DNA from: Bacteroides sp.
GTDB taxonomy: Bacteria; Bacteroidota; Bacteroidia; Bacteroidales; Muribaculaceae
DNA: 64,000 nucleotides
Reading direction: 5' to 3'
Assembly (NCBI GenBank): GCA_014802425.1
Contig: JAAVCH010000010.1
Location: 20,743 to 84,742, forward strand
In this document: positions 15,925 through 17,072 of the stretch, in pieces
Layout: each line of letters opens with the position of its first letter
Position numbering within the stretch: the first letter of the stretch is position 1
Program-made: the position numbers and the translations under genes
Notes under the pieces: model-generated
Told to the model about the DNA's origin: nothing
Database searches by the model: none
The model's input: only the letters and a program-made list of their open reading frames with translations

Positions 15925-16890
15925 ATGGAAAATATACTTGAGATAAAGGGACTCACGAAATACTTCGGCGACAAAAAGGCGCTTGCCGACGTGAGTTTCA
16001 ATGTCGAGAAGGGTTCGATATGTGGCCTGCTGGGTCCCAACGGCGCAGGCAAGACCACCCTTCTGCGCATCATCAACTCCATCATGGTGCGGGATGCGGG
16101 CGAGGTGCTCGTCGGCGGCCTGCCGGCCACTATGGAGACCACCGGCAAACTCGGCTATATGCCTGAGGAGCGAGGCCTGTACGACAAAATGACCGTAGAA
16201 AACCAAATACTCTATTTCGGTCAGCTTAAAGGAGGAAGGAAGAAGCGCCTTCGTGAGGTGATGAACGAGTATCTCGAACTTTTCAACCTCACCGACGACC
16301 GCAAGAGAAAAATCAAGGAGCTCTCCAAAGGTAACCAGCAGAAAGTGCAGATCATATCCACGCTCGTCCACGAGCCGGACATCGTGATCCTCGATGAACC
16401 CTTCAGCGGATTCGACCCTATAAACGGCGCACTGCTCCAGGAACTCATCGCAAGGCTTCACGAACAGGGCACGACGATCATCCTGTCGTCCCACAATATG
16501 CCGGCCATCGAGGAGATGTGCTCCGACATCGCCCTCATCAACCATGGAGAGCTACTCGTGAAGGATTCAATCGAGAACATCAAGGAAGCCAACAAGGACA
16601 ACTCCATAATCCTCACCACTACCTCGCCGCTTCAGATTCCCGCGCTCATCGACGGGGGGGCTGTGACCGACATCGAGGCCACAAAGCCGCTCAACTGGCG
16701 GAAGGGGTATGCCTACCGCCTGTTCAAGGCCGAAGGAAAATCGAATATGGATGTGCTCGATGCTGTGGCCTTCCAGTCGGATGTCGTACACTTCGAGGAG
16801 GCTCTCCCGTCGCTGACCGATATTTTCCTTAAATACACTACCCTCCAGCAACAGAAAGCATCCGAACCGCAATCAGAAAACAACCGATAA
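15925..16890 (+). CDS. ABC transporter ATP-binding protein (NatA/DUF4162 type)
   Basis: Cytoplasmic ATPase of an ABC-2 exporter. The Walker A motif GPNGAGKTT starts at 37, the signature is LSKGNQQKVQ, Walker B is DIVILDEPFSGFDP, and the switch histidine lies in LSSHNM. After about residue 225 comes the DUF4162-type extension found in NatA-like ATPases. Length is 321. The matching permease begins 184 bp downstream and is separated only by the structured element at 16888-17072, whose first three bases supply this gene's stop codon. The substrate is unknown; sodium export is one precedent in the family. Confidence 0.9.
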   Translation: MENILEIKGLTKYFGDKKALADVSFNVEKGSICGLLGPNGAGKTTLLRIINSIMVRDAGEVLVGGLPATMETTGKLGYMPEERGLYDKMTVENQILYFGQLKGGRKKRLREVMNEYLELFNLTDDRKRKIKELSKGNQQKVQIISTLVHEPDIVILDEPFSGFDPINGALLQELIARLHEQGTTIILSSHNMPAIEEMCSDIALINHGELLVKDSIENIKEANKDNSIILTTTSPLQIPALIDGGAVTDIEATKPLNWRKGYAYRLFKAEGKSNMDVLDAVAFQSDVVHFEEALPSLTDIFLKYTTLQQQKASEPQSENNR

Positions 16891-17072
16891 GTGGCTCCTA
16901 AAAATCGATGAACCTATCAAATGCCGCAATCCCGCCGAAAGCATGGTTGCGCACTGAAGGGGCTTGGCGTGCCGAGCGGCTGATGCACAGGCCCGCAACG
17001 CCACGTGAGAACGGCATTCCATAGTTCAGGATTAAAAGCCACATGTATAGTTAAATTCTTAAGAGCCACTTA
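16888..17072 (+). repeat. Dispersed structured element, copy 1 (185 bp)
   Basis: It has 14-bp terminal inverted repeats: TAAGTGGCTCCTAA at the left and TTAAGAGCCACTTA at 17059-17072, with one mismatch. Nested pairing joins 16920-16926 (AATGCCG) to 17012-17018 (CGGCATT) and 16946-16951 (GTTGCG) to 16994-16999 (CGCAAC). The central 16-base hairpin is at 16962-16977. It aligns without gaps for 152 bases with the copy at 45518-45703 (113 identical, 74%), including a 23-base invariant block starting ATAGTTCAGGATTAAAAGCC at 17021. It ends two bases before the permease ATG. It is either a structured leader RNA or a MITE with TA-type ends. Confidence 0.8.

Follow-up and report, generated by a model that had tools for sequence, protein, structure and literature searches.

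Two segments of the window, i.e., of the whole 64,000-nucleotide stretch of DNA that was analysed, are copies of a non-coding MITE. This element is very probably non-autonomous, moved by an IS630-type transposase, and equipped with a structured interior cassette that is probably read as a single-stranded fold. The covariation in this interior is real and extends beyond the palindromic ends. We regard the element as a new MITE variant that is defined by its interior, the role of the core being one that we infer. The description "plain MITE" is too little for it, and "riboregulatory leader" is too much.

Two copies in the window

Copy 1 (185 bp, 16888–17072) and copy 2 (186 bp, 45518–45703), both on the plus strand, are supported by alignment to each other and, for copy 1, by the empty junctions in relatives. 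They lie where an earlier note, made from the sequence alone, had placed two related segments, and align over their whole length at 74–75% identity (E 3e-27 and 2e-28). The 14-bp inverted ends described in that note hold, with one mismatch per copy; the 23-base invariant block, ATAGTTCAGGATTAAAAGCCACA, was found in both copies, and the central 16-base hairpin reads as the note had given it, GCTTGGCGTGCCGAGC in copy 1 and GCTTATCGGGTTAAGC in copy 2. In the sequence, the 5' terminal inverted repeats occupy 16888–16908 and 45518–45538 (plus strand), and the 3' repeats occupy 17052–17072 and 45683–45703 (minus strand).

All interior features are on the plus strand. The structured core spans 16938–17004 in copy 1 (model R1, 45.2 bits, E 7.6e-10) and 45569–45635 in copy 2 (67.4 bits, E 2.2e-16), scores that have to be read with both copies being rows of the R1 alignment; copy 1 is a decayed example of the core, and copy 2 a better one. 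At its centre is a hairpin supported by sequence and covariation, GCTTGG-CGTG-CCGAGC (16962–16977) in copy 1 and GCTTAT-CGGG-TTAAGC (45593–45608) in copy 2. The hairpin is flanked by the two strands of a G.A ladder, identified from the sequence and the ladder count: in copy 1, GCACTGAAGGG (16951–16961, partly degenerate, with its partner at 16978–16988) and GGCTGATGCAC (16978–16988); in copy 2, GGACTGATGGA (45582–45592) and AACTGAAGAAC (45609–45619). An asymmetric 3' bulge follows at 17029–17051 and 45660–45682, and the AGCCAC within it repeats part of the 3' inverted repeat in copy 1 (17037–17042) and the motif of the terminal inverted repeat in copy 2 (45668–45673).

Copy 1 lies between an ABC-transporter ATPase gene (15925–16890) on its 5' side and an ABC-2 permease gene (17075–17980) on its 3' side. 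The stop codon of the ATPase gene is the TAA of the 5' end of copy 1, i.e., the insertion is at the TA of a stop codon. The neighbours of copy 2 are a CYTH-domain gene (44957–45400, minus strand) and a DUF5686 gene (45711–48170, plus strand, start codon uncertain). Start-codon distances of 2 and 7 bp had been claimed for the two copies. The first is correct (ATG at 17075), whereas the second requires the TTG at 45711 to be the start; an ATG in frame does not occur until 45795, 91 bp away, and this ATG was the start chosen by the gene caller. A by-eye look for a promoter inside the window copies, using the -7 box of Bacteroidetes, found none.

Family size and dispersal

Four full copies, together with fragments, were found in the genome that contains the window (G000; 2.79 Mb, 48 contigs). 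With a copy from the relative G099 as the query, 57 of 101 genomes of the genus match at E<=0.01, and in G099 itself 40 near-full copies were scored out of 139 candidates. First-look candidate counts, not all of them scored, were 181 in G079, 130 in G069 and 139 in G099, in genomes of 2.0–2.6 Mb. The repeat occurs far above chance: the terminal 21-mer, at up to 3 mismatches, was found 9+9 times in the own genome, 91+84 times in G099 and 25+29 times in G098, and its reversed-pattern control occurred 0 times in all six genomes searched. From 127 loci we obtained 122 full-length copies from 31 genomes, forming 31 clusters at 85% identity and drawn from the best matches rather than at random; 121 copies remain once one with identical flanks is removed. 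L018, at the same place as L187, was dropped ahead of the context count. Nearly all copies (120/122) are 182–197 bp long and therefore too short for a transposase. At one locus of G099 (L165, C32), a second element end directly adjoins a full copy.

Insertion at TA and empty junctions

The earlier note had allowed for a MITE as the alternative reading, and the features of the family bear this out, i.e., TA termini, IS630-like inverted ends, short empty junctions and a nested TA duplication. TA is present at both ends in 102 of 122 copies, and inverted ends are seen across the family alignment. The TA is common to a stop codon in eight copies, copy 1 among them, and to a start codon in five. 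None of the 122 copies is inside a called gene, as judged by a caller (our own codon-usage script) that is blind to genes split by insertion. At one G099 locus (L208, C63, 4547–4807), a copy is nested in a perfect 68-bp palindrome that has the same ends, and TA borders the copy on either side.

For the gene pair around copy 1, loci were fetched from 29 relatives, and both genes were found in 26. The junction measures -14 to 113 bp in 25 of these 26 (one with unread bases), leaving no room for the element; such empty target sites with TA had been named beforehand as evidence against a leader. The junction in G004, ...CGATAA-GCA-ATG, compared to ...CGA[TAAGTGG...CACTTA]AAATG in the window, illustrates the TA site and does not prove it, being one sequence at 60–69% protein identity. 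At the corresponding junction in G030 (L408, 1184–1502) there is a different hairpin, with two opposed cores and ends AGTGTGTTTGGAATTTT.

Three sites in G099 (L205, L206 and L207) hold derivatives of 77–78 bp without the core and with common internal breakpoints. Judging from these sequences, a shortened core-less form also appears to have moved, and the core would therefore be dispensable for cut-and-paste.

Ends and the likely transposase

Pfam DDE_3 was found at 16 places in 9 of 20 genomes tested. Ends of the TAAGT... type are present on both sides of six of these places, on one side of six (five of them at contig edges) and on neither side of four; three DDE_3 loci with both ends are in the own genome (L212, L221, L226). 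The G099 end is matched at 15 or more of 21 bases by 2 of 2389 TA-anchored 21-mers of the window, and eight IS ends match it at 13–18 bases. The search for a transposase with the same inverted repeat, which the earlier note had proposed, was thus successful in part: DDE_3 ISs with similar ends exist, whereas the end variant of the window itself is matched by the best IS end of its own genome at only 15–16 of 21 bases, and an exactly fitting transposase was not found among the own-genome IS ends. The core was not detected at E<=0.1 in eight IS loci, some of them partial; therefore, the MITEs are not simple deletions of those ISs.

The 122 MITEs comprise 107 with type I ends (GAAC-type after TTAAT), 8 with type II ends (TTTATAC) and 7 unclassed. 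When up to 40 MITE ends of each type were scored against the ISs, type I ends fitted L221 best (mean 19.1–19.2, compared to 15.7 for L212), and type II ends fitted L212/L215 (19.4) and L214 (19.1) best and L221 at only 9–10; the mean for 200 random window 40-mers against L221 was 5.3. The core is kept in MITEs whose ends fit two different IS630 lineages. As far as the match of ends can indicate, an IS630-type transposase acting in trans is well supported as the likely mobilising partner.

Covariation and the G.A ladder

Covariation was analysed in 27 of the 31 cluster representatives (L189, L153, L304 and L160, truncated or divergent, were dropped) against a null of 400 tree-simulated alignments, a procedure that imitates R-scape and is not R-scape. 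The structure came from this alignment itself; within it, E<0.05 was reached by 20 of the 67 model pairs. The ranking of all pairs, unlike the within-structure test, is independent of the derived structure; there, the 11 top-scoring column pairs of the whole alignment were all model pairs, and five had E<0.05 over all pairs. Compared to the tree-simulated null, the covariation is significant beyond phylogeny. In the core alone, 92.4% of cells are paired, compared to 28–36% for slid pairings, and 18 of 20 core pairs have changed on both sides. The compensatory changes that had been read from two copies are real, and the lack of covariation that was to mark a plain MITE is clearly not seen.

The interior forms a hairpin in which tandem G.A/A.G mismatches occur up to three times, with two base pairs between them; outward from the hairpin, the order is A.G G.A / two pairs / A.G G.A / two pairs / A.G G.A. 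The expected letters at the six mismatch positions are present in 20, 24, 27, 25, 24 and 23 of the 27 representatives; of the two-pair spacers, one covaries and the other is nearly fixed. Conservation of the interior is one of sequence at the mismatches and of pairing at the stems. For the distant cores we used 39 distinct sequences, some of which had contributed to the model to which they were aligned. Their first rung is conserved in 37 and 36 of them and their second in 34 and 25; the third has mostly disappeared (10 and 8). Rfam, in agreement with the claim that no named RNA family matches, has no match to the core: the window gave 0 matches in gathering mode, and in E-value mode, at 32 loci, the gathering score was reached only by two tRNAs beside one core.

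Strand, decay and the 3' bulge

Among the inner pairs, there are 56 G.U and 25 A.C combinations, and in stem 4 there are 30 and 4, respectively; it should be noted that these counts come from related, not independent, sequences and that the fold was derived on the counted strand, which favours G.U. The closing pair of the 39 distant cores is G.T in 24, G.C in 8, A.T in 7 and A.C in 0. The cleaner indication that a single strand does the folding comes from stem 4 and from the closing pair of the distant cores. Recent changes in the G099 copies show no G.U preference (42 G.U versus 34 A.C), suggesting decay of copies once they are fixed, with selection acting on the active lineages.

The 3' bulge holds a degenerate copy of the end of the element, with a match of 7.37/10, compared to 6.64 for permuted sequences (0/5000). 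In some folds, namely those of copy 2 and C23 as RNA and those of copy 1 and C23 as DNA, the partner of the 5' end is this bulge copy rather than the 3' end. Both ends are paired with each other in 7 of 9 copies folded with DNA parameters, as read from the brackets.

Position relative to genes

The earlier note had interpreted conserved position and orientation as signs of a leader or regulator. Family-wide, conserved orientation and position before a class of genes were not found. Of 107 genes on the 3' side, 61 begin at the end that faces the element (P 0.18), and copies between same-strand neighbours are oriented ++ in 38 cases versus -- in 31 (P 0.47); this balance is the lack of orientation preference that had been named as refuting a leader, and the junction of copy 1 is short in almost all relatives. 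A start codon lies within 20 bp of 21/61 3' ends versus 7/56 5' ends (P 0.009), and the median distance to starts is 46 bp for 3' ends and 107 bp for 5' ends (P 0.007); both comparisons are post hoc, and the closeness of 3' ends to starts is a residual signal that weakly favours the leader reading.

The core outside the family

A covariance-model search of related genomes, as the note had suggested, extended the matches well beyond the two copies. Model R1 matched in 130 of 247 genomes of the bacterial family (20 of 30 genera) and, in the order, in 13 of 393 genomes, 9 of those 13 being in 6 other families. For the class, model R2, built from 93 matches, gave matches in 18 of 395 genomes, of which 14 belong to 8 families outside the order; several of the R2 matches are multi-copy, and three best matches (G726, G770, G947) are weak. 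Outside the family, most genomes had no match to R1 or R2. The counts of these searches are lower bounds, with stricter filters and 13 or 20 candidates scored per genome; the class-wide matches come from models built partly from earlier matches, with rough E-values.

Searches for exact matches to parts of the invariant block (24 and 17 bases) gave 0 and 91 places in genome contigs and 20 in viral contigs, which we took as chance. On 37 of the 91 unrelated-pattern control loci, R1 found nothing, and on all 91, the best R2 values were E 0.071 and 0.22, both in Algoriphagus. The core pattern was found at two loci in viral contigs, with R2 E 0.00027 and 0.053.

The hairpins that hold distant cores have other inverted ends, e.g., AAGGTATGTTCTATAAATT, AGAAACTGTTTTGAATTT, AGAAGGTGTCCCAAAAG and GGGTACCTCGAAGAACCTC. 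An inverted repeat scoring at least 12 surrounds the core at 14 of 22 loci outside the family, compared to 4 of 990 shuffled flanks; at the other 8 of the 22, none was found by this search, which is insensitive and also missed copy 2. In viral contigs, AGAAACTGTTTTGAATTT occurs at 10 loci with no inverted partner at up to 4 mismatches, except for one 4-mismatch site about 1.6 kb away (L452), and GGTACCTCGAAGAACCTCG gave no locus there. In a distant family of the same class (f128; L431, L433, L434, L436, L437, L444, L445), the same core lies mostly within ends like GGTACCTCGAAGAACCTCG. Two further arrangements were seen: two tandem cores 144 bp apart in the same orientation, around which no inverted ends were found (L427, G963 C109), and a 126-bp core-bearing hairpin between two tRNA genes (L424, G866 C27).

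Discussion

We propose that an IS630-type (DDE_3) transposase, supplied from another place in the genome, would bind the inverted ends of the MITE, cut it out and paste it at TA, duplicating the TA, with movement presumably in trans. Copies would survive between genes, in both orientations. The interior cassette, which comparison of the copies shows to be a hairpin on a G.A/A.G ladder plus an asymmetric 3' bulge with its degenerate end copy, stays while the ends change to fit another IS630 lineage. A conserved host factor may read the cassette as a fold in RNA from neighbouring read-through transcription, and may process or protect the transcript, so that cassette-carrying lineages would persist. 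The core is kept across changes of ends and is dispensable for cut-and-paste; therefore, whatever keeps it must act on persistence or copying. It is also kept with swapped ends and in other families, and is therefore probably read as a single-stranded fold. That the interior acts as RNA is a tentative proposition, to which we give somewhat less than an even chance; an RNA fold met by a host factor is nevertheless the version that we favour, with single-stranded DNA a close second. With balanced orientation, about half of the copies would be read antisense.

If the interior is instead kept as DNA, a single-stranded or cruciform hairpin would aid copying of the element, e.g., at the replication fork or through a structure-binding nucleoid protein. 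We consider this unlikely on balance. In its favour, tandem G.A pairs are stable in DNA, the two ends pair in most of the folds with DNA parameters, and the core is retained across different ends. However, the core-less derivatives moved, and IS630-type cut-and-paste does not need a hairpin; the strand asymmetry points to one strand only, yet fits single-stranded DNA as well as RNA. Template switching can make inverted-repeat DNA more perfect, and recent copies decay without G.U preference; a plain MITE, whose interior pairing reflects palindrome-maintaining replication errors without selection, would be consistent with both. This is improbable because the ladder is conserved as mismatches (20–27 of 27), which template switching would erase, and because, in addition, the 3' bulge is preserved and the core has lasted longer than the ends.

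Regulation of downstream membrane-protein genes by a cis-acting leader or attenuator RNA is very improbable, given the balanced orientation counts, the copy 1 gene pair that is without the element in 25 of 26 relatives, and the 139 and 181 candidate places within single genomes in the loose first look. On its side are, besides the post hoc closeness of 3' ends to starts, the four full copies of G000, three of which have a gene called on the 3' side and are all directed at its start, and two solo 3' ends, L192 (G000 C14:35835) and L003 (G000 C18:1607), that lie 4 bp before ATGs with frames of 245 and 145 aa. In both solo ends, the rest of the element is gone, and they are possibly kept as 5' untranslated sequence. 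Hardly any weight can be given to the idea that a Y1 (TnpA-REP/RAYT) transposase moves the core as a REP-type hairpin. The imperfect hairpin with its mismatches and the phylum would both fit, and one report describes Bacteroidetes subclass 2.6 TnpA-REP genes as flanked by atypical structures (PMC6006769). Against this, none of 30 fetched Y1 loci (35 places listed) had the core at E<0.5 (best E 0.63), and a Y1_Tnp match was absent in 10 of 25 core-bearing genomes tested; with no Y1 locus flanked by the core (0/30), we rejected this candidate.

A broader form of the preferred reading, i.e., a non-autonomous MITE with a cassette read as a single-stranded fold, would extend it to the class. The G.A-ladder cassette would then be carried by MITEs of several transposase families and outlive their ends, a host factor would read it as RNA or single-stranded DNA, and the interior would define the lineage; on the sequence matches, we see this as possible, at not quite even chances. 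Several different transposase families may lie behind the various ends.

The element resembles known repeats in part. RUP of Streptococcus pneumoniae, mobilised by IS630-Spn1, is likewise a short non-coding repeat with IS630-like ends and a TA target, intergenic, in high copy number and with a stem-loop transcript; RUP is 107 bp long, whereas here a conserved, covarying interior is common to elements with different ends and in different species (PMC2229807). Correia/NEMIS elements of Neisseria are TA-flanked MITEs with inverted ends, a foldable transcript and an internal motif, reported for MITEs of this kind as an IHF-binding site, compared to a G.A-ladder core and several kinds of ends here, a distinction drawn from their description (PMC2229807, PMC10969869). 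BrickBuilt and related MITEs of Porphyromonas gingivalis are also from Bacteroidetes and intergenic, with predicted long stem-loops and no Rfam match, but they have ends in common with other MITEs and interiors of their own (23-nt tandem repeats), the reverse of what is seen here (PMC4596501). Flavo-1 (RF01705) is, as described, another widespread structured motif of Bacteroidetes, indifferent to sense and antisense and unclear in function (PMC2864571, PMC9723704); among 20 loci with the core, no Rfam family, Flavo-1 included, overlapped it at E<=1. REP sequences of the TnpA-REP type are dispersed, mismatch-bearing hairpins too, and differ from the present elements, which are about 182–197 bp long with long inverted ends, TA and no link to a Y1 gene (PMC6006769). 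A description of this element, or of a common MITE interior in Bacteroidetes, was not found in the open-licence literature.

MITEs are usually described by their ends, and the interior is regarded as inert. Here, the interior is conserved, and the ends track two IS630 lineages. If confirmed, this would be a testable case of selection on the interior of a non-autonomous element, and many genomes of the class, presumably Bacteroidia, would carry a structured RNA or DNA motif that Rfam lacks.
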